DNA from: a candidate division Zixibacteria bacterium RBG_16_43_9
GTDB lineage: Bacteria; Zixibacteria; MSB-5A5; RBG-16-43-9
Assembly: GCA_001775355.1 (NCBI GenBank)
Contig: MEWM01000062.1
Span: 3,399-19,226, forward strand
Reading direction: 5' to 3'
Length of the DNA: 15,828 bases
Positions within the stretch are counted from its first letter, which is position 1. Every line of letters begins with the position of its first letter. Shown one piece after another: positions 3,287 through 11,583 of this stretch. Position numbers and translations under genes: made by a program. Below the pieces are notes generated by a model. It searched no databases. It had not been told where the DNA came from and saw only the letters and a program-made list of their open reading frames with translations.

Positions 3287-3315
3287 TCTATTTTTTGGGG
3301 AATCGAGTTATAATA

Positions 3316-3345
3316 GTCATTCTGAGCCCGAGGGGCGAAGAATCT
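3316..3345. repeat. Short palindromic repeat ATTCT...AGAAT
   Basis: The segment has arms ATTCT (3319-3323) and AGAAT (3339-3343) around a GC-rich centre, GAGCCCGAGGGGCGA. It resembles short dispersed repeats common in genomes of uncultivated bacteria; that resemblance is from memory and not checked. Confidence 0.45.
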
Positions 3346-3368
3346 GTTAAATTTGAACTCTTTGTAGA

Positions 3369-3392
3369 CTGTCAGGCTTGAGAACCTGGCAG
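3369..3392. repeat. Inverted repeat CTGTCAGG/CCTGGCAG
   Basis: An 8-bp inverted repeat with one mismatch (3369-3376 and 3385-3392) and an 8-nt loop. It is part of the repeat-filled gap 3211-3966. It is not followed by a T-run on the minus strand, so it is not a convincing terminator for the genes upstream. Confidence 0.45.
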
Positions 3393-3515
3393 GACAAAAA
3401 AATCGTACTCCCATTAACTTCTTGATTGACAACTAAGCAATTTCTCAATTTATTAAAGGAGGTGACCAATACACTCTAAAAAAGGGTTATGCTGGGTAAA
3501 ATAATTTCATAGTGC

Positions 3516-3662
3516 GAACTCACCCCAAATCCCTTTCTTGGAAGAAAGGGACTTATACTCCCCTTCTCTTAGTAAGTCGAAGATCCCGCCCTTCGACAGG
3601 CTCAGGGCGGTGAGCGAAGTCGAACCGCCAAAGGCGGGGAGAAGGGGTCAGGGGATGAGTTC
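3516..3662. repeat. 147-bp nested imperfect palindrome
   Basis: Arms pair from the outside inward: GAACTCACCCC (3516-3526) with GGGGATGAGTTC (3651-3662), CCCCTTCTC (3560-3568) with GAGAAGGGG (3639-3647), CCCGCC (3585-3590) with GGCGGG (3633-3638), TTCGAC (3592-3597) with GTCGAA (3619-3624), and GCTCA (3600-3604) with TGAGC (3611-3615). A separate perfect hairpin, TCCCTTTCTT-GG-AAGAAAGGGA (3530-3551), sits on the left arm. The core 33 bp (3592-3624) belongs to the same family as 1384-1416. Confidence 0.75.
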
Positions 3663-3701
3663 AGAAGCACCCGTAGGGCGGCGCGGCCCACCAAATTAAT
3701 T

Positions 3702-3772
3702 CCCTCTCCCCTCTACGAGGAGCGAAGCCCGGCGTAGCCGCCGTAAGGCTTTTAACGGCTTGTGGGAGAGGG
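3702..3772. repeat. Inverted repeat CCCTCTCCC...GGGAGAGGG
   Basis: Nine-bp perfect arms at 3702-3710 and 3764-3772 enclose a GC-rich centre that itself contains AGCCG/CGGCT pairing. ATGAGTTCA follows at 3785-3793 and also ends the preceding element (3655-3663), which suggests repeats joined end to end. Confidence 0.65.
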
Positions 3773-3831: not shown

Positions 3832-3887
3832 TTGTAGTTGCCCAATTCATTGGGCTTTTTTTAGCTCGATAAATCGAGCAACTACAA
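3832..3887. repeat. Three-way-junction repeat element (TTCA/TAAA hairpins)
   Basis: An outer stem TTGTAGTT/AACTACAA (3832-3839 and 3880-3887) encloses two perfect hairpins that abut it: GCCCAA-TTCA-TTGGGC (3840-3855) and GCTCGA-TAAA-TCGAGC (3864-3879), separated by TTTTTTTA. Every base except the spacer and loop centres pairs. The first hairpin plus T7 looks like a terminator on the plus strand, but there is no plus-strand gene. The hairpin order and loop centres match the element at 11465-11583. Confidence 0.8.
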
Positions 3888-3895
3888 AAAAATAC

Positions 3896-3948
3896 CGGGA
3901 GGGGGACCCCGCAGAGCGGGATTTCGCAATGCTCAACAAGCCCCTCCC
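3896..3948. repeat. Hairpin GGGAGGGG...CCCCTCCC with inner hairpin
   Basis: GGGAGGGG (3897-3904) can pair with CCCCTCCC (3941-3948), and between them lies a small perfect hairpin CCCGC-AGA-GCGGG (3908-3920). It mirrors the hairpin at 3807-3827 on the other side of the three-way element. It ends about 18 bp before the stop codon of the permease gene. Confidence 0.6.
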
Positions 3949-3966
3949 CTACAGCCCTGTTAAAAC

Positions 3967-5160
3967 TTATGTTCTGAAAAGGACCTGCTCTCTTTCAAAA
4001 AGTCGGCGGGTTATAAAAATCGCTATCGAGGCGTAAATGGTGGTGCTCAGGAAGATCAGCCCGATAAACCCCCAGTGATAAGTTCCCAGAAGAACCTCTT
4101 TTAAAACCAGGCTCGTATTTATCACCGGAATAAAAGCCAGCCTGGCTGATAACTCAAATCCGGGTAAAAAAGAGACCATAGCCGGCAGGATAATGACGAT
4201 AAGCAGAGGCGAAAGATAACTCTGAGCCTCTTTGTAAGACTTGGCAAAAAGCGAAAGGGAAAGCAGAATCGAGCTTGCCAGACAGCAATAGGGAATCATA
4301 AGTAAAATCAGGATTAAAATGGAAAGGGGATTGACTGAGAAAACCGCACCCTTACCCATCTCCTCGAACCGGGTAAAACTGCTTCCCGCGGTGATGACCA
4401 TGCTGCCAGTAGATACGATGGAGGTGATCAAGGAGGCGGTGAATACTGCTAAGAACTTACCTGAGGTAATCTCCCCTCGAGAAGCAGGTGAAACCAGAAG
4501 AGTTTCCATTGTGCCTCTTTCCTTTTCACCCGCAGTTAAATCGATTGCCGGATACATCGCACCGGTAAGAGCCATTATCATTATCATATAAGGCAAAAAC
4601 ATTGCCAGGAAGAATCCTCCCATCTTCTCCTTAGGAGCCAGGTTTTCCTTCTGAACCTTCACCGGATGAAGCAAGGACCTATCTACCTTTTTGACTTTCA
4701 ACCTTTCTGTGACCACGCTGTCCTGAAAAGCTTTGAAAAGATTATCCAGCTTGCCTGAAGCCATTTCAGAGCGGATCTCCGCCGCATCATAGTAGATTTT
4801 AATCTGAGCCGAGTTTCCTGCATCGATCTTTTTCTCGAAATCTGTGGAGAACTCCAATGCGGCTGTGATCTTTTTGTCTTTTAGCGCTGCTTGGTAATCA
4901 CTCTCCGGAACAATTTCAAAGGATTTGTCCATCTTCAACTGGGAGAATAAAGCTGGAGCATTATCTCCGCCAATAACCACAATCGGGTTTACCCTTTTAG
5001 CCGCTTGTTTAGTCATCTTTATCATCAGAGAGCTCATGCCGAACATCAGAATCGGAAAAAGGAGGATAGGAACCAAAATCATAGAGATGAGGGTCCTTCT
5101 GTCCCTCAGCATATCTTTTACTTCTTTGAAATAAATGATTTTTACCTTTTTAGAATTCAT
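3967..5160 (-). CDS. ABC-2 type permease, NatB-like
   Basis: A 397-aa inner-membrane permease with the ABC-2 layout: a cytoplasmic N-terminus (KEVKDMLRDRRTL), one membrane segment (about 24-46), a large extracytoplasmic domain (about 47-180), then five or so membrane segments (about 182-207, 232-257, 277-305, 316-333 and 366-385). The loop GEKERGTMETLLVSP (211-225) after the second segment is the conserved signature of NatB and related permeases. The start overlaps the end of the ATPase gene by 11 bp, which implies translational coupling and one complex. NatB of Bacillus acts in Na+ export, but many homologues have unknown cargo, so the substrate here is open. It is the last gene of the long minus-strand run. 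Confidence 0.88.
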   Translation of the reverse strand: MNSKKVKIIYFKEVKDMLRDRRTLISMILVPILLFPILMFGMSSLMIKMTKQAAKRVNPIVVIGGDNAPALFSQLKMDKSFEIVPESDYQAALKDKKITAALEFSTDFEKKIDAGNSAQIKIYYDAAEIRSEMASGKLDNLFKAFQDSVVTERLKVKKVDRSLLHPVKVQKENLAPKEKMGGFFLAMFLPYMIMIMALTGAMYPAIDLTAGEKERGTMETLLVSPASRGEITSGKFLAVFTASLITSIVSTGSMVITAGSSFTRFEEMGKGAVFSVNPLSILILILLMIPYCCLASSILLSLSLFAKSYKEAQSYLSPLLIVIILPAMVSFLPGFELSARLAFIPVINTSLVLKEVLLGTYHWGFIGLIFLSTTIYASIAIFITRRLFEREQVLFRT

Positions 5161-5893
5161 GCTCTTCCCCTACTAATTTGACGAAGATCTCATCTAAGTT
5201 TTTCAGTCCAATTGTATCCCGGAGTTTTTCCAAGGTGCCCACTGCTAAGATTTTCCCTTGGTGAATGACCGCGATCTCATCGCAGAGCTTCTCTGCCTCA
5301 TACATTATGTGAGTGGAGAAAAGAACGCATTTATCCTCTTCTTTTGCCTTCCGGATGAATTGGATGATGTTTCTGGAGGTGATCACATCCAGTCCTAAGG
5401 TAGGCTCATCCAGGATCAATATCTTCGGATTATGGATGATGGTTCGGGCTAAGGATACCTTTTGCTTCATACCGGAGGAGAGTTTATCCACCCTCCGGTC
5501 TCTGAAGCTTTCCATATCGAAAACTTTGAAAAGCTCATCTGTCCTTTTCCGGATCAAGTCTTCATCTAAACCGTTTAATCTGGCAAAATAGGCAACTGTT
5601 TCCTGGGCGGTCAGCCGGGGATAAAGAGCAGTATCTGAAGAAAGAAAACCGATATTTGCCCTCACCTTCTGAGGCTCTGAGAGGATATCGAAACCATTGA
5701 TTTTGGCGGTACCCGAAGTAGGCTTCAAAACTGTGGAAAGGAGCCGCATCAGTGTGGTTTTGCCTGCTCCGTTCAGTCCCAAAAACCCAAAGATTTTCCC
5801 GGGCTGGCATTCGAGATTAGCCTTATCCACCGCCCTGATCTCTCCCCTTTTTTTATCCTGAAATGTCTTGGAAAGGTTGAAGGTTTTTATCAT
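5150..5893 (-). CDS. ABC transporter ATP-binding protein, NatA-like
   Basis: A 247-aa nucleotide-binding subunit. Walker A is GLNGAGKTT (39-47), the signature is LSSGMKQK (138-145), Walker B is ILILDEP (158-164, D162/E163), followed by TLGLD and the switch histidine H195 (STHIM). The position of the Q-loop glutamine reads GFLSSD, so Gln is replaced by Ser; the sequence IGFLSSDTALYPRLT resembles NatA-type proteins. It pairs with the overlapping permease gene. The ATG at 5893 has GGAG only about one base upstream, which is unusually close, so initiation may depend on the upstream gene, whose stop is 37 bp away. The substrate cannot be read from the sequence. Confidence 0.9.
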   Translation of the reverse strand: MIKTFNLSKTFQDKKRGEIRAVDKANLECQPGKIFGFLGLNGAGKTTLMRLLSTVLKPTSGTAKINGFDILSEPQKVRANIGFLSSDTALYPRLTAQETVAYFARLNGLDEDLIRKRTDELFKVFDMESFRDRRVDKLSSGMKQKVSLARTIIHNPKILILDEPTLGLDVITSRNIIQFIRKAKEEDKCVLFSTHIMYEAEKLCDEIAVIHQGKILAVGTLEKLRDTIGLKNLDEIFVKLVGEEHEF

Positions 5894-5926
5894 TCTCCGT
5901 ATTTAGTTTCGCCAACAGCAGGTTCA

Positions 5927-5944
5927 CGTCTCAGTATTGAGACG
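5927..5944. repeat. Hairpin across the stop codon of the second GWxTD gene
   Basis: CGTCTCA-GTAT-TGAGACG is a perfect 7-bp stem with a 4-nt loop, spanning the last codons and the TGA stop (5931-5933). It is not followed by a T-run on the minus strand, so a terminator is doubtful. It may slow ribosomes or protect the mRNA end before natA-like translation. Confidence 0.45.
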
Positions 5945-7340
5945 ACTGATTGCTGTTCAGTTTGTCCTCCCAGGATGGGTCATACACCTCTCCTTTGGCC
6001 GTGGAATGAGCCAACCTGTAAACGCCGTATCCCTGCTCATCTACGAAGATGAAATAAACCCCACCCTGGATGTGGTCATAATACCATTTCTCCCACGCCT
6101 TTGCGGACATAGACACGGGGTACCTTTCGATATTATCCGGCTCTCCATATATTATGTAGACCTTTCCCATGTCGGTTTTCCATCCGTCTTTTTTCCAGGC
6201 ATCCCTTCCTTCTTCGGTGGTGGAGTATCGACGCTGAGCCTCCTCCCATCTCTTGTAATATTCAATCTTGAACTCGTTTTCAGGGGTTGAGGGGTCCGGG
6301 TCTTTTCTCTTCCAGAATTCAGTTATGAACTGTCTTTTGCCGGTCAAATTAAGCTGGTCGTACATCCTCAATTCATCCTTGCTGGCGATATAAGTGAGCA
6401 TTTTTCTTAGATTTTTAGCTTCCTCTTCGGTCCCAGGCTCTCCTGCTGCTTCCAGCATTGGCGAAGCCAGGACCTGAAAAGGTTTGGTTTTTTTAGTCCC
6501 CTCTCCAGAGGCAAGGTCTTTAGCCGATACCTGAAGGAAATAGTTGCCTGGCAGAAGCGAACCTACATTCAGAGCGCTGACCACCACCGAAGTATTTCCC
6601 GGCTTAGTATGTATCATTGAGCCATAATCTTTGGGATTTGAGCTGTTAGAATCCAAGACTGAAAAGCTCAAGGAATATCCCTTCTTGTTGCCCTCTGAAT
6701 CGAATCTGAGGTTATAGACCTCTGCATACAAATAAAGTAACCCCTGTTTCGCGATATATTCCCGCCTGGGGTTAGGGAATACTTTCATCCCTGACTTGTT
6801 GAATTTTACCTCAGTGGTGTCCTCTTTTAAATCCAGAGCTAACTGGATATCGCTAAGCTGCAAGGAATCGGTTTTGAAATCAGGGATAAAAAGCTGAGCT
6901 TTTTTTATCCCAGCCTTATTGGAATTGAGGTCTAAAGTCTTTAGCTCTAAAGAATAAGTCCCGGCTGGCAGTGTATCGCCCAGGACATCTATCAACTGGG
7001 CATCCGAGCTTAAGACTTTCGCCGTGTCCTCGACCAGGTTTCCTATCTGCCAGCTTTTCTCTTTGACTGTGCCACCCTTCTGATCTTTTAAGGTAAGTTC
7101 GAGGGATATGACTGCTCCGAACCCTTTAGGTTGCTGCAGATATTCCAGCTCTTTCTGCTCCAGGGAATAATAGATTTCCAGATAGCTTTTGTCTATGTCC
7201 GGCAGATACTTGAAAACCGCATAATCTAAATCTATCCTTAGCGAATCAGCAGAGAGAGCCTGCCTCTGAGGGAACCACAGAGCCAGAGCCAGGAATAAGA
7301 CCCAGGCTAAATCTGCCTTGATTTTTGATTGTTTTTTCAT
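5931..7340 (-). CDS. Secreted GWxTD-domain protein, copy 2
   Basis: About 469 aa, with an N-terminal signal peptide (KIKADLAWVLFLALALWFPQ, cleavage near residue 30-32) and no further membrane segment, so it is probably periplasmic or surface-exposed. Residues 35-295 are beta-rich and unrecognised. The C-terminal part (about 310-450) carries the GWxTD domain: FWKRKDPDPSTPENEF, EYYKRWEEA, then GWKTDMG (387-393 counting from a GTG at 7343), VYIIYGEPDNIERYP, WYY and VDEQGYGVYRL. The domain's function is unknown. The start is ATG at 7340, with GGAGG 5 nt upstream; the GTG one codon before would sit too close. It follows its paralogue by about 55 bp and precedes the NatA-like ATPase by 37 bp, so it may work with one of the two flanking ABC systems. 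This is inference. Confidence 0.85.
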   Translation of the reverse strand: MKKQSKIKADLAWVLFLALALWFPQRQALSADSLRIDLDYAVFKYLPDIDKSYLEIYYSLEQKELEYLQQPKGFGAVISLELTLKDQKGGTVKEKSWQIGNLVEDTAKVLSSDAQLIDVLGDTLPAGTYSLELKTLDLNSNKAGIKKAQLFIPDFKTDSLQLSDIQLALDLKEDTTEVKFNKSGMKVFPNPRREYIAKQGLLYLYAEVYNLRFDSEGNKKGYSLSFSVLDSNSSNPKDYGSMIHTKPGNTSVVVSALNVGSLLPGNYFLQVSAKDLASGEGTKKTKPFQVLASPMLEAAGEPGTEEEAKNLRKMLTYIASKDELRMYDQLNLTGKRQFITEFWKRKDPDPSTPENEFKIEYYKRWEEAQRRYSTTEEGRDAWKKDGWKTDMGKVYIIYGEPDNIERYPVSMSAKAWEKWYYDHIQGGVYFIFVDEQGYGVYRLAHSTAKGEVYDPSWEDKLNSNQSSQY

Positions 7341-7395
7341 CACTACCTCCGTCCATTAATTTATTTAAAAAAATAAGAGCTTTAAATTCCTTTTT

Positions 7396-8700
7396 TCATC
7401 TCCTGCCATCATAAGGATATCGAAGCTCATATTCTCCATATCCGTTCACATCCACGAACAGGAATTTACGATTAAGGCGATAATAATACCAGACCTGGTA
7501 AGCCCGGACGTCCAGTTCAAAGGGGTGCCTGTCTATTTCATCCGGAGGACCAAACTTAACATAGACCAACCCCATATCCGTCTTATACCCTTCCTTATCG
7601 TAAATGCCGAAGTGCTCATTGGCATATTTTATCCTTTTATAATATTCCTCCATCAATTCGTTCTCCGGGGTATCAGGAGTAGGGTCTTTCGATTTCCAGA
7701 ACTCTCTCCATTTCTTGATCCTTTCCTCTTTTCCTTTGGTCTCCCTCAATTCCTTTAGCTCTTTATCCGATGCCACGTACCGTAAAATCTCCACTGCCCG
7801 GTCCCAATTTGTGTTCACCTGATAAAGAGGAGACCATTCTACTTTCAGTTCCTTTTGAGCCTTGGCTATGAGATTACCTTTCCGGTCAAAAAGTTTAATA
7901 CGAACAGTACAAGTCTGATCTGGCACTGAACTCAAGTCAATTTTTTTAAAACCATATAAAGTCTGATCAAAAACCGACAAAAGTGCGGCACTGGAGGTAT
8001 CCTTTAAAATTATGGCTTTATTGCTTCCTTCCAGCTCGTAGCCTAATCTGTAATCTTCTACTTTGCCTGCGGGAAGTACACCGTAAAGCTCAAAATAGAT
8101 CCAGAAAAAACCTTCTGGATCTCCAAACAGATCAGATACGCTGGGAACGACTTTTTTACCTCTTTTGACAAATTTGGAAGAGTCCTTGTCTTCCTCTACG
8201 CTACGCGCTAATTCCAAACCGCTGAAAAGGGGTTCACCAATCTTGATTGCAGGCAGGGTGACCATCTGCTCAAACTTTGACACCCGATTAGAATTATGGT
8301 CATTAAGCCTGAAACTGAGTTTATACTCCCCGGCTGGTGCGAACAGATCGACCCGGTTTATCAGGAAGGCAGCAGCGGACCGGGTCTCCTGATAGTTATC
8401 AACTGCAAATTCTTCCTCATGTGAGCTGGCAGTATACTGTTTACCCTTATTAAAAAGGACCAACTCTATCTCATGGCTTGCTTTGAACTTGTCTTGATCC
8501 TTTACAAAGGTCATTTTGTTATTGAAGATTTTATAGTAGACCTCTAACCTCCAGCTATTTCCTTCGCTGAAATAGGCGTAATCCACGAAGACGTCCTGCC
8601 CCTCCGGCTCCTCCTGATATCCGAAGTCAGTTTGCGAAAAGGCTAACGGGAGAAAAATTAAAAACAAAAACGGGAAGAGAAACGCAATTTTTCCTTTCAT
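7396..8700 (-). CDS. Secreted GWxTD-family protein, copy 1 (GYKTD variant)
   Basis: A 434-aa protein with a clear signal peptide (MKGKIAFLFPFLFLIFLPLA, cleavage near FSQ, residue 21-23). Residues 35-290 are beta-rich, with DVFVDYAYF near the start matching DLDYAVF in its neighbour, so the paralogy covers the whole length. The C-terminal domain has FWKSKDPTPDTPENEL, EEYYKR, GYKTDMG (371-377), VYVKFGPPDEIDRHP, VWYYY and FVDVNGYGEYELRYP. The family's Trp is Tyr here. AGAGGA lies 5-6 nt before the ATG. The upstream gap of 111 bp separates it from the second permease, with a possible internal promoter. Function is unknown; location beside a tripartite exporter suggests an envelope role. Confidence 0.85.
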   Translation of the reverse strand: MKGKIAFLFPFLFLIFLPLAFSQTDFGYQEEPEGQDVFVDYAYFSEGNSWRLEVYYKIFNNKMTFVKDQDKFKASHEIELVLFNKGKQYTASSHEEEFAVDNYQETRSAAAFLINRVDLFAPAGEYKLSFRLNDHNSNRVSKFEQMVTLPAIKIGEPLFSGLELARSVEEDKDSSKFVKRGKKVVPSVSDLFGDPEGFFWIYFELYGVLPAGKVEDYRLGYELEGSNKAIILKDTSSAALLSVFDQTLYGFKKIDLSSVPDQTCTVRIKLFDRKGNLIAKAQKELKVEWSPLYQVNTNWDRAVEILRYVASDKELKELRETKGKEERIKKWREFWKSKDPTPDTPENELMEEYYKRIKYANEHFGIYDKEGYKTDMGLVYVKFGPPDEIDRHPFELDVRAYQVWYYYRLNRKFLFVDVNGYGEYELRYPYDGRR

Positions 8701-8766
8701 TTTTTCCTCTGATTATTATAAATAAATCTTATAGAAATATCCATAGAAATCTATCCTGTACTTTCC

Positions 8767-8795
8767 ATTATAATTACACTTACTTCCCTTTTCCC
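8767..8795 (-). promoter_or_regulatory. Possible internal promoter for the GWxTD genes
   Basis: In the 111-bp gap, the minus strand has a perfect TATAAT (8767-8772). Seventeen nt upstream lies GGGAAA (8790-8795), a poor -35 with 3 of 6 matches. The leader would be about 60 nt. The gap is AT-rich, so a chance TATAAT is possible. Confidence 0.25.
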
Positions 8796-8811
8796 GTTTG
8801 GGCTTAAACTT

Positions 8812-10062
8812 TTATTCGTACCTGAGGGAGACTATGGGATCAACTTTAGCTGCCCGGTAAGCCGGATATATACCGAATATCAACCCTACGCTAACTGCCA
8901 CTGAGAAACCTATGATCACCCAGGGTACGGAGACGCTGGCGGGCAAGGGGGTGGTTAAGGCTATAAGCTGGCTCAATAGAAGCCCCACGATTATACCCAG
9001 AACCCCTCCTGTACCGCTTAAGGTCATAGCCTCGATCAGGAACTGCCAGACGATGTCCCTTTTTTTGGCCCCGATCGCTTTCCTTATCCCTATTTCCCTG
9101 GTTCTCTCTGTAACTGAGACTAACATTATGTTCATCACCCCCACCCCTCCCACTAACAAGCCGATGGAGGAAATCACCACCATTACTAAATAGATAGCGC
9201 TGGTTATCTGATGGTATACATTCATCATGTCATCCTGAGTGGAGACAGCGAAATCATTGGGCTTATCTGGAGGAACAGCTCTTCTCCTTCTCATCAGCTC
9301 AGTAATCTCATCGATCGCTTTGGACATAAGCTCTGGCGATTTGGGCCTGGCAACCAAGAGTAACTCTTTTTCCTGTGGATAAAGTTTCATAAAAGTCCCA
9401 TAAGGCAAAAGGATGAAATTGTTCATACTTCCGCCTAAAAGGTTGGGCCTTTTCTCCATTACTCCAACAACTGTAAACTTCTTAGGGGAGAAAGTAGCTC
9501 CTCCCATTAGAATCTCTTTACCTATAGGGTCTATAAAAGGGAACAATTTCTCTTTTAAATCTGGACCCAGCACCACTACCTGGGCTTTGAAGTTTATATC
9601 TGAGTCGGTGAAAAATCTCCCTTCAGCTACAAAGTTGTTATTGACCACCTCATATTCCGGCATAACTCCAATCAGCTCAAAACGTGTGTTCTCTTCTTTT
9701 CCGAATTTCGCTATATGGGAGCCAGGTCCCCAGTTCTGTGGAGAGACCTCGTTAATCGAAGGGCAGAAATCCTTTACTGCCATAGCATCCTCAAAGGTTA
9801 TCGGTTTGCGATTCCTCTCCTCCTCGGGTATTCTTCCCATCCTTATACCAATTTTGAATTTCGTAACGTAGATCACATTCGACCCCAGGGATTCTATCTG
9901 CTGAGCCATACTTTTATTTAGGCCTTGAATGATCGAGACCATTCCTATAACCGCAGTCACACCAATAAGAACACCCAAAATGGTTAAAAAGGAGCGCAGC
10001 TTGTTACTTTTCAGCGATGCCCAGGCCATCAGCATGCCTTCTTTTATCTCAAAAAGGTTCAT
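8812..10062 (-). CDS. MacB/FtsX-type ABC permease, second copy
   Basis: A 416-aa permease with four membrane segments in the MacB layout: TM1 about 24-46, a large periplasmic domain (47-288), then TM2 (about 289-315), TM3 (345-368) and TM4 (383-400). Conserved family segments are WASLKSNKLRSFLTILGVLIG at the N-terminus, MNIMLVSVTERTREIGIRKAIGAK after TM2, and IYPAYRAAKVDPI..LRYE at the C-terminus. It lacks a fused ATPase domain, so it must use the separate ATPase at 11602-12285. It is a paralogue of the next upstream gene; the two probably form a heterodimer. No strong SD is seen before the ATG (only GAAGAAAC), and a repeat element fills the upstream gap. Family function is mechanotransmission that drives periplasmic export; the substrate is unknown. 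Confidence 0.9.
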   Translation of the reverse strand: MNLFEIKEGMLMAWASLKSNKLRSFLTILGVLIGVTAVIGMVSIIQGLNKSMAQQIESLGSNVIYVTKFKIGIRMGRIPEEERNRKPITFEDAMAVKDFCPSINEVSPQNWGPGSHIAKFGKEENTRFELIGVMPEYEVVNNNFVAEGRFFTDSDINFKAQVVVLGPDLKEKLFPFIDPIGKEILMGGATFSPKKFTVVGVMEKRPNLLGGSMNNFILLPYGTFMKLYPQEKELLLVARPKSPELMSKAIDEITELMRRRRAVPPDKPNDFAVSTQDDMMNVYHQITSAIYLVMVVISSIGLLVGGVGVMNIMLVSVTERTREIGIRKAIGAKKRDIVWQFLIEAMTLSGTGGVLGIIVGLLLSQLIALTTPLPASVSVPWVIIGFSVAVSVGLIFGIYPAYRAAKVDPIVSLRYE

Positions 10063-10087
10063 TTTTTAGTCTGTTTCTTCAACGCTT

Positions 10088-10179
10088 GGAGTGTAAAGCC
10101 GTCAAGGTCTTGAGACTTTAGCTTTACCTTCATTCATCCATTGGTAATTGATTTTAATAAACCTAAAGGTTTATACTCC
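10088..10179. repeat. Inverted-repeat element GGAGTGTAAA...TTTATACTCC
   Basis: Ends GGAGTGTAAA (10088-10097) and TTTATACTCC (10170-10179) pair at 9 of 10 positions. The right end contains a perfect hairpin ATAAACC-TAAA-GGTTTAT (10157-10174). The left part has GTAAAGC/GCTTTAC (10093-10099 and 10121-10127) with an irregular interior that includes TCAAG-GT-CTTGA. It fills most of the gap between the two permease genes and is a second, more degenerate copy of the element at 11465-11583. Confidence 0.75.
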
Positions 10180-10217
10180 ATGCTTTTTATTATTTTTTAT
10201 TTTTCCTTCTTCCTTTT

Positions 10218-11438
10218 TCATTCGTATCTCAAACAAGCAATCGGGTCTAACTTGGCGGCTTTAACTGCTGGAAAGATCCCGAAGAAAAGTCCTACTGAAG
10301 TTGCGATGATAAGACCGGTGATAACTGACCAGGCTTCAATAGCCGCGGGAAGCGGTGTGGTGGCTGCCACTATCTTGGCGATGATACTGCCCAAGATAAC
10401 CCCGATCAATCCTCCGACCAGGGCTACAGTTACCGCTTCAACCAAAAACTGCCAGAGGATATTTTTCTTCTTCGCACCCACAGCTTTACGGATGCCGATC
10501 TCCCTGGTTCTCTCTGTGACTGAGACCAGCATTATGTTCATAATGACTATGCCCCCAACCACCAGGGCGATAGATGAGACCCCGATCATAACTATAAAGG
10601 CGGTGGAGGTAAAATTGCGGTACAGCTCCATAAAGGTATCAGAGGTCATAATAGCGAAATCGTCTGGCTTATCATAGGGAACATGCCTTCTGGCTCTGAG
10701 GACTAAGCGAACCTGATCCTGTGCCTCCTGCATCGAGCCGAAACTTTCCACCTTGACGAAGATGGCCAGAAATCTTTTGGTTCCGAAAAGCTTGTTAAAG
10801 GTGGTGATAGGGATCATAACGAAATTATCTTGACTTATTCCTAAAAAGGTTCCCCTCTTTTCTGCCACTCCCACAACCCTGAAATAATAATTACCTATCT
10901 TGATATCTTTTTCCAAAGGGTCCTGCCCGGGAAAAAGGTTATCCGCAACCTCCCATCCAATCAAGGCCACCCTTCTATTATGTAGATTCTCAAATTCAGA
11001 AGGATACCTTCCACTGCTCAAATTGATATCCGAGATCTCTGTGATATTGGCAGTAGATCCATCAATCTCAACGTCACTCAGATATTTCTCTCTATATTTC
11101 ACCTTTCTATAGGCAACCATCTCAGCTCCAACCTTCCAGCACAAAGGGCACCCCTTCTTAACTGCTTCCATATCCTGGAGAGTGAATTCTTTTCTTTTGA
11201 GAACTTTTAAATAATCTTCCTCGCTCATTATTGTACGCCAGCCAGCGTCCACAAAAAAGGTGGTGGAGCCCAGGCTGGAGATCTGGTCAGCCACATATTT
11301 GTTCATCCCGGCTATGATCGAGACCACCGCGATCACAGTCATCACTCCGATTATCACCCCGATCAGGGTAAGGATGGACCTGAGCTTATTGGCGATAAGA
11401 GATTTTAAGGCAACCCCGATACTTTCTAAAAACTGCAA
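10218..11438 (-). CDS. MacB/FtsX-type ABC permease, first copy
   Basis: A 406-aa permease with the same layout as its downstream paralogue: TM1 (about 20-45), periplasmic domain (46-278), TM2 (279-305), TM3 (334-358), TM4 (371-391). Conserved segments are LKSLIANKLRSILTLIGVIIG, MNIMLVSVTERTREIGIRKAVGAK and GIFPAVKAAKLDPIACLRYE. The start is a TTG: GGAGG lies 6 nt before it and no ATG is nearby. Two cysteines in the periplasmic domain form CPLC (97-100); the paralogue has only one cysteine there. A disulfide or metal site is possible but unproven. It is flanked by repeat elements on both sides. It likely forms a heterodimer with the second copy and uses the ATPase encoded just upstream. Confidence 0.9.
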   Translation of the reverse strand: MQFLESIGVALKSLIANKLRSILTLIGVIIGVMTVIAVVSIIAGMNKYVADQISSLGSTTFFVDAGWRTIMSEEDYLKVLKRKEFTLQDMEAVKKGCPLCWKVGAEMVAYRKVKYREKYLSDVEIDGSTANITEISDINLSSGRYPSEFENLHNRRVALIGWEVADNLFPGQDPLEKDIKIGNYYFRVVGVAEKRGTFLGISQDNFVMIPITTFNKLFGTKRFLAIFVKVESFGSMQEAQDQVRLVLRARRHVPYDKPDDFAIMTSDTFMELYRNFTSTAFIVMIGVSSIALVVGGIVIMNIMLVSVTERTREIGIRKAVGAKKKNILWQFLVEAVTVALVGGLIGVILGSIIAKIVAATTPLPAAIEAWSVITGLIIATSVGLFFGIFPAVKAAKLDPIACLRYE

Positions 11439-11464
11439 ACTTATCCTCCGTCAAACCATTTTTT

Positions 11465-11583
11465 GGAGTGTAAACCTTCAGGTTTACCTTTTTAAATCAT
11501 TCAAAAGCGGATTAGATTGCAAACCTTCAGGTTTGCTTTTTTGTTCTTGAATTAGAGAAAGTAAAACTAAAGTTTTACACTCC
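11465..11583. repeat. Inverted-repeat element with three perfect hairpins
   Basis: The ends GGAGTGTAAA (11465-11474) and TTTACACTCC (11574-11583) are perfect 10-bp inverted repeats. Inside are three perfect 7-bp hairpins with 4-base centres: GTAAACC-TTCA-GGTTTAC (11470-11487), GCAAACC-TTCA-GGTTTGC (11519-11536) and GTAAAAC-TAAA-GTTTTAC (11561-11578). Arm differences are compensated on the other side in each case. The element fills the gap between the ATPase and first permease genes and would be part of the operon mRNA. Confidence 0.85.

Follow-up and report, generated by a model that had tools for sequence, protein, structure and literature searches.

What kind of sequence recurs between genes with a constant layout and constant loops, in spite of hairpin arms that differ from copy to copy? 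The question is raised by a stretch of 15,828 nt from candidate division Zixibacteria bacterium RBG_16_43_9 (contig MEWM01000062.1, positions 3,399-19,226, labelled G000:C62; this whole stretch is called the window below), in which a first-pass annotation, made from the sequence alone, described three paired-hairpin elements of one design. On re-reading the window, all three were found where they had been described, at 3834-3885, 10088-10179 and 11465-11583; together they hold six units of a common layout, one of them with a decayed foot, and one expanded unit. We conclude that the elements are very probably REPINs, that is, two inverted repetitive extragenic palindrome (REP) units with their feet outward, lying between genes and mobilised by a REP-associated tyrosine transposase (RAYT), a single-strand transposase of the HUH/Y1 type. 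They are thus a known kind of element, and as such are well explained.

The analysis covered the genome of the window (G000; 1.95 Mb in 160 contigs, 74% complete) and three relatives, namely G001, the sister genome G002, and G003. The main sample consisted of 821,066 bases in 60 stretches, from contigs picked because they held the pattern or Y1 hits. As a replicate, 442 kb of G002 were taken from contigs in number order, plus the syntenic contig, picked without regard to hits. Shuffled controls were generated by first-order Markov resampling, 2 kb at a time.

Taken from its tag inward, every unit starts with a foot, either GTAG or GGAG. Exactly 8 nt follow, the last 6-7 of them in the stem, and then come a loop TTCA or TTTA (TTYA) and the complementary arm. 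A comparison with shuffled sequence, as advised in the first-pass annotation, gave an excess: the main sample has 763 hairpins whose centre is 4 nt and whose arms are 6 or longer, against a mean of 276 in five shuffles, and the two commonest centres are TTTA/TAAA (116 against 4.6) and TTCA/TGAA (83 against 4.4). The foot lies exactly at -8 in 166 of the 199 TTYA hairpins (GTAG 87, GGAG 79), while no other distance between 4 and 15 gives more than 2 for either tag. A selection on foot and loop that made no demand on pairing yielded 413 sites; all six inner positions are paired in 166 of them and five in a further 30. Perfect units of foot plus TTYA are absent from ten shuffles of the main sample. 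Six control loop classes contain 0-1 perfect units each; the classes TTYC and TTYT contain 11 each, and look like other REP families. The layout was recovered in the replicate, where the foot is at -8 in 78 of 97 TTYA hairpins.

The stems, by comparison, are diverse. The 166 perfect units have 26 distinct inner 6-bp stems, with all four Watson-Crick pairs present at each of the six inner positions, which bears out the suggestion that this repeat type is recognisable by its layout and loop despite differing arms. At least three families can be distinguished: A, GGAG-T-(G/A)TAAA(C/G/A)C; B, GTAG-TT-GC(C/T)C(A/G)A and relatives; and C, GTAG-C-GGAAACC, GGAAGGC, GGAGGTC and relatives. Element 1 and families B and C, with GTAG at -8, conform to the usual definition of REPs by a 5′ tetranucleotide GTAG or GTGG (GT[AG]G) beside a palindrome. 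Elements 2 and 3 and the 79 units of family A do not; their foot is GGAG, and family A is therefore REP-like in its working but a variant of the definition. Nor do the three elements form a single family: elements 2 and 3 and element 1 belong to different ones, whose best-matching transposases are on different branches.

Changes in place can be followed among the relatives. The right unit of element 3 has the stem GTAAAAC in the window and GTAAAGC in G001, with both arms altered and the same loop, and a left unit of G001 with an intact foot, GGAG-T-GCAAACC-TTTA, aligns with the middle unit of element 3, which has a decayed foot and the loop TTCA. In the stretches from G001 and G002, 14 of 58 unit clusters were matched to the same place in the genome of the window; loop-letter swaps with unchanged stem, one-sided stem changes and paired stem changes are all present among them. 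In family A the loop letter is tied to the stem (AACC, 25 TTCA and 22 TTTA; AAGC/AAAC, 7 TTCA and 29 TTTA; Fisher P 0.003), and family B has the same tendency, which is not significant (P 0.10). The two bases that follow family A hairpins are CA in 27 of 90 cases and CT in 26 of 90, a feature that families B and C do not show.

Neighbouring units within 150 bp are inverted with their feet outward in 45 of 69 pairs in the main sample and in 20 of 34 in G002, which is the arrangement of REPINs and of bacterial interspersed mosaic elements. It also explains the difference between left and right loops noted at first, since in such pairs the plus strand reads TTYA on the left and TRAA on the right. 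As a rule, however, TTCA on the left with TAAA on the right could not be upheld: it describes only 18 of the 45 pairs (against TTTA..TAAA 14, TTTA..TGAA 9 and TTCA..TGAA 4) and 3 of 20 in the sister genome. Mixed loops are found in 27 of 45 pairs, which is no significant excess (permutation P 0.084), and part of the original impression arises because the loop letter is linked to the stem in family A. The outer inverted repeat that had been described does exist; it is made up of the foot, the spacer base or bases and the foot-side end of the stem.

The two stems of a pair are nearly always unlike, differing in their inner part in 44 of 45 head-to-head pairs. Compared with partner shuffling, same-stem pairs are depleted in family A (1 of 25, 7.5 expected, P 0.0008), in family B (0 of 15, 4.2 expected, P 0.004) and in G002 (0 of 20, 4.9 expected, P 0.0012); for family C the count is 0 of 3 (0.8 expected, P 0.40). 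A preference for heterodimers is already in print (PMC3733652), where it is said to lack an obvious explanation and protection from hairpin cleavage is suggested. The units of a pair are probably kept unlike because identical ones would make an unstable long perfect inverted repeat.

As is characteristic of REPs, the copies are many and nearly all intergenic. The genome holds GGAGTGTAAA in 88 exact copies and its reversed control in 3; for TTGTAGTTGC and its control the counts are 34 and 3. Only 12 of 196 units lie inside open reading frames (ORFs) of at least 100 amino acids, and such ORFs occupy 81% of the main sample. The elements also vary in presence between genomes. The syntenic place in G003, with flanks about 70-73% identical, contains neither element 2 nor element 3, and G001 lacks element 2 and the stretch that holds element 1. 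In G002, element 1 is present with one altered base in one arm, and the contig stops short of the place of elements 2 and 3; a further REPIN of the window's genome is missing there between flanks that are 97-98% identical.

The units of the three elements are listed in Table 1. Element 1 reads GTAG-TT-GCCCAA-TTCA-TTGGGC, an 8-nt spacer, and GCTCGA-TAAA-TCGAGC-AA-CTAC, and its pair of stems is found in 9 of 15 family B pairs. For element 2, the right hairpin fits as described (ATAAACC-TAAA-GGTTTAT-A-CTCC), but the left one is not degenerate, as had been thought: GTAAAGC and TTTA-GCTTTAC are both intact, and are split by an insert. The main sample contains nine such expanded units including this one. 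The insert is almost identical in seven of them and longer in the other two, and the left half of element 2 represents a recurring sub-type rather than the decay of a single copy. Element 3 has the two-hairpin layout reported for it (GGAG-T-GTAAACC-TTCA-GGTTTAC ... GTAAAAC-TAAA-GTTTTAC-A-CTCC) but contains a third unit as well. A search of the window against Rfam at the gathering threshold gave no matches.

Table 1. Units of the three elements, with positions in the window.
Feature	Positions	Strand	Details
Element 1, left REP unit, family B	3834-3855	+	foot GTAG 3834-3837, TT, stem GCCCAA/TTGGGC, loop TTCA 3846-3849
Element 1, spacer	3856-3863		TTTTTTTA, from reading of the sequence
Element 1, right REP unit, family B	3864-3885	-	foot GTAG (plus-strand CTAC 3882-3885), stem GCTCGA/TCGAGC, own-orientation loop TTTA (plus-strand TAAA 3870-3873)
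Element 2, left unit, family A, expanded	10088-10127	+	foot GGAG 10088-10091, stem GTAAAGC 10093-10099, 17-nt insert 10100-10116, loop TTTA 10117-10120, GCTTTAC 10121-10127
Element 2, right unit, family A	10156-10179	-	foot GGAG (plus-strand CTCC 10176-10179), stem ATAAACC, loop TTTA (plus-strand TAAA)
Element 3, left unit, family A	11465-11487	+	foot GGAG, stem GTAAACC, loop TTCA 11477-11480
Element 3, middle unit	11514-11537	+	stem GCAAACC, loop TTCA, foot decayed to AGAT
Element 3, right unit, family A	11560-11583	-	foot GGAG, stem GTAAAAC, loop TTTA

Elsewhere in the window, a hairpin at 1300-1327 has a minus-strand foot GTAG starting at 1327, the stem AGACGCAT and the centre CGC, and this stem is seen again within or close to Y1 genes in relatives (L257, L258). 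The intergenic stretches 1300-1430, 3300-3415 and 3576-3766 differ in length or content from G002, which is 93-95% identical, and seem to be made of other repeats.

The first-pass annotation had advised a search for a mobile protein such as a Y1/REP transposase, and such proteins are indeed encoded: the genome has 10 matches to the Y1 model PF01797, 9 of them above the cut-off. Cognate units were assigned by a foot-anchored rule that asks for the same footed unit on both sides of a gene, after removal of genes shorter than 120 amino acids. (An unbiased match of hairpins on both sides was tried and set aside, as it missed several clear cases, probably through over-strict limits.) Five of the 10 genes are flanked in this way (L031, L032, L033, L034, L039), and hairpins lie within 500 bp of the other five but fall short of the strict rule. 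Over the relatives, it holds for 34 of 122 distinct RAYT-like genes. Stems of family B with TTYA at distance 8 flank both sides of L179 and L180, the latter with GCCCGA-TTCA paired with GCCCAA-TTTA on each side, and units of family C type with TTYA at distance 8 flank L033, L164, L167, L171 and L275 (one side of L275 is CTCA). L192 is flanked on both sides by GGAG-T-GTCAGCC-TTTA, again with TTYA at distance 8; it shares its foot, spacer base and loop with family A and has a different stem. TTYA units lie at distances 9, 7 and 7 beside L276, L287 and L289. On one side only, L195 of G002 has a TGTAAAGC unit and L255 of G001 a GTAG-TTGCCCGA-TTTA unit. L255 belongs to a second set of Y1 genes found with L180 (L237, L241-L243, L245, L249, L251-L259), none of which has the same unit on both sides (L249 and L256 are under the 120-residue limit) and which were not used as cognates. 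Six of nine proteins tested exceed the 80-bit cut-off of the NCBIfam model for REP-associated tyrosine transposases, NF047646 (L032, L033, L164, L167, L171, L192), and three score below it (L179, 72.9; L180, 68.6; L037, 62.7 bits).

We note that the Y1 genes of this genome have at least six more REP-like hairpin families near them (L031, L032, L034, L035, L038, L039, L040), with loops CCT, TTTAC, TTCC/TTCT, TTAC, TCCT/TCCC and TTAT. Around the L040 gene (G000:C6, around 20878-21054) there is a crowd of long GTTGGTG/GTTGGTC palindromes with TCCT/TCCC centres. Similar pieces lie inside a family A REPIN at L004 (1501-1600; G000:C6:27772-27871), which has other palindromes in its interior and intact outer feet, so that palindromes are nested in palindromes. 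In relatives, two Y1 genes of a longer type (L241, L258) have REP-like hairpins within the reading frame, as in TnpAY1 subclass 2.4.

The GGAG foot is associated with a change in the transposase. According to PMC6006769, it is known which residues of E. coli TnpAREP contact GTAG, and subclasses 2.2, 2.4, 2.5 and 2.7 show good conservation of W94, Q95 and R104. Here, among RAYTs flanked by units on both sides, the conserved W is followed by Q in 26 of the 28 with GTAG feet (L034 and L179 are the exceptions) and in none of the 3 with GGAG feet. It is likewise missing from all nine proteins assigned to the GGAG group, of which seven are in a supported clade, L325 joins them on a tree of 33 RAYTs and L326 is placed by motif alone; no GGAG unit was found for L199 and L326 of this group. 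Q is also lacking in some RAYTs with other or unknown feet. The signature of the clade is NHYH and W followed by an aromatic residue or H, with YIHYNP in several members. On the tree of 33, which leaves out L161 (its unit, at distance 5, is doubtful), the GGAG foot needs one change, with L185 coded as GGAG by hand because the automatic label took a GCAG nested inside its GGAG units. The clade is one branch, and GGAG with loss of Q is therefore one correlated event rather than proof.

These findings suggest a mechanism in which the RAYT would bind each unit as folded single-stranded DNA and would recognise three things, the four letters of the foot, the constant distance of 8 nt and the T-T-Y-A loop, with the stem mainly needing to pair; it would cleave and copy units so recognised. 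A stem that is largely free provided that both arms change together would allow unrelated stems to coexist under one loop. We therefore put forward, as a tentative proposal that may well prove wrong, a recognition code in which RAYTs read foot, 8-nt ruler and TTYA but hardly the stem, giving free stems and REPINs of unlike stems, and in which one clade has switched the second foot letter from GTAG to GGAG with loss of Q95 (E. coli numbering), a switch traceable to a residue.

Several observations weigh against the explanation of the elements as REPINs handled by RAYTs in this way. Of the 199 TTYA hairpins, 33 lack GTAG or GGAG at -8, although 12 of these have one-letter variants (GGAT 6, GCAG 2, GAAG 2, ATAG 2). 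The main sample was picked for hits, which biases the family shares; the G002 stretches are free of that choice. For family A, the best-matching RAYT, L192, has another stem, and its exact unit start GGAGTGTCAGCC occurs only six times in its genome; no RAYT among G000-G002 has GTAAACC or GTAAAGC units on both sides; and the window genome's own gene of the GGAG clade (G000:C134) appears frame-broken, with CTTG-loop units nearby. For these reasons the link of family A to a RAYT would run through foot, spacer base, ruler and loop, whereas for families B and C the link is good. In the TnpAREP of Marinomonas, a whole-stem complement swap lowered cleavage moderately, so that the stem there is not wholly free (PMC8266576, in its accessible text). 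Finally, the loop class tracks the RAYT tree weakly: TTYA needs 7 changes against a mean of 9.5 for shuffled labels, with 29 of 500 shuffles as low, and the loops are therefore either shared across lineages or switch easily.

The last point bears on a different account of the loop, in which one ancestral REP gave rise to families A, B and C and TTYA was simply kept. The equal foot-loop distance and loop of the three families fit it, as do the TTYA + Y loops of L032, L165 and L304, which look like extensions of TTYA. We consider it unlikely, since TTYA requires at least six changes on well-supported branches of the RAYT tree, close to shuffled labels, and since sister RAYTs have other loops (L033 TTTA beside L175 TTT/TTC); as one inherited class, the loop clusters only weakly on that tree, and the candidate was set aside.

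The hairpins could instead be intrinsic transcription terminators or 3′-end hairpins of mRNA, with loop and stem shaped by their function in RNA. The window offers some support: seven T come after the left unit in element 1, and T-rich tails are present at two of the hairpins in element 3. These T-runs are on the plus strand, whereas the long ORFs flanking the elements are on the minus strand. More generally, at least six T in the 8 nt after the hairpin occur on a unit's own strand in only 17 of 196 cases and on the other strand in none, and no role in termination is known for a foot held invariably at exactly -8. This explanation is accordingly very improbable. That the elements are relics of IS200/IS605 insertion sequences, resembling miniature inverted-repeat transposable elements with a left-end and a right-end hairpin, is scarcely credible, for although the transposases share a superfamily and 8 of the 9 proteins examined match the IS200 model NF033573, none of these reaches its cut-off and every protein matching both models scores higher with the RAYT model, and the end hairpins of IS200/IS605 have one strand-specific orientation, unlike the 45 of 69 pairs that are inverted here.

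Reading the elements as REPINs has consequences beyond the window. Natural sequences alone give the letters that a RAYT seems to read, in agreement with in vitro selection (SELEX) data from an unrelated bacterium; if this is true, REP recognition would become predictable from genomes. The GGAG clade offers a testable link between residue and base in the reading of the guide, the step thought to decide the cut site. Free stems also show why repeat searches based on stems can split such repeats into many small, seemingly unrelated families. As far as the literature was searched, three things are new: the clear division, within single genomes, between letters that are read (foot, ruler and loop) and letters that are free (stem); REPINs in this phylum; and the GGAG foot together with its clade of RAYTs. 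No literature on repetitive extragenic palindromes was found under the spelling Zixibacteria (Zixiibacteriota was not searched), a search for RAYTs and palindromes in candidate phyla brought up only a title on sponge Thaumarchaeota, and GGAG as a foot was not found by word search in the accessible text of PMC3733652, PMC6006769, PMC2817692 and PMC8266576, nor among the off-topic titles listed by a broader search.

Several known systems resemble the present one, as described in the accessible parts of the papers cited. In TnpAY1 subclass 2.5 the REPs are short, with foot plus stem of 10-13 nt (12 here), and a near-constant length has thus been described already (PMC6006769). The signature of subclass 2.8 (NHYH, W[YH], YIHYNP) is close to that of the GGAG-clade proteins, but its REPs are long with GT[AG]G feet and, in that sample, cyanobacterial (relatives in other phyla are mentioned), whereas those here are short with GGAG feet (PMC6006769). 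In Pseudomonas and Stenotrophomonas, orthologous RAYTs have different stems and part of the loop is often kept (CTTG, by our reading of the table), although the feet are GT[AG]G and the loops mostly others (PMC3686654). The GTAG-tagged REP super-family (Di Nocera 2013, PMC3733652) has the same unpaired GTAG end, stems mostly of 6-9 bp, alternative complementary stem residues, many loops of TY type, and head-to-head dimers often with unlike stems; the degenerate feet given in its text are GYAG, GYRG, GTRG, GTMG and GTGG, whereas that of family A is GGAG. The closest functional data are for REPtron Mb of Marinomonas sp. MWYL1, a group 3 TnpAREP (PMC8266576). Its loop needs T12, T13 and A15 with any base at 14, with which TTYA agrees; its stem must be paired but is partly free: mismatches are harmful, changes at positions 2 and 3 make no difference, and those at position 4 weaken activity. 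Two nucleotides separate its foot tetranucleotide from the stem, a spacing shared with family B. It differs in having a 5-bp stem and 7 nt from foot to loop, compared with 6-8 bp, 8 nt, 26 stems and several families here. On substrates with a CT site, strong selection was limited to the last two bases of the foot, both of which GGAG keeps, and the CA and CT that follow family A hairpins are the two dinucleotides cut by REPtron Mb.

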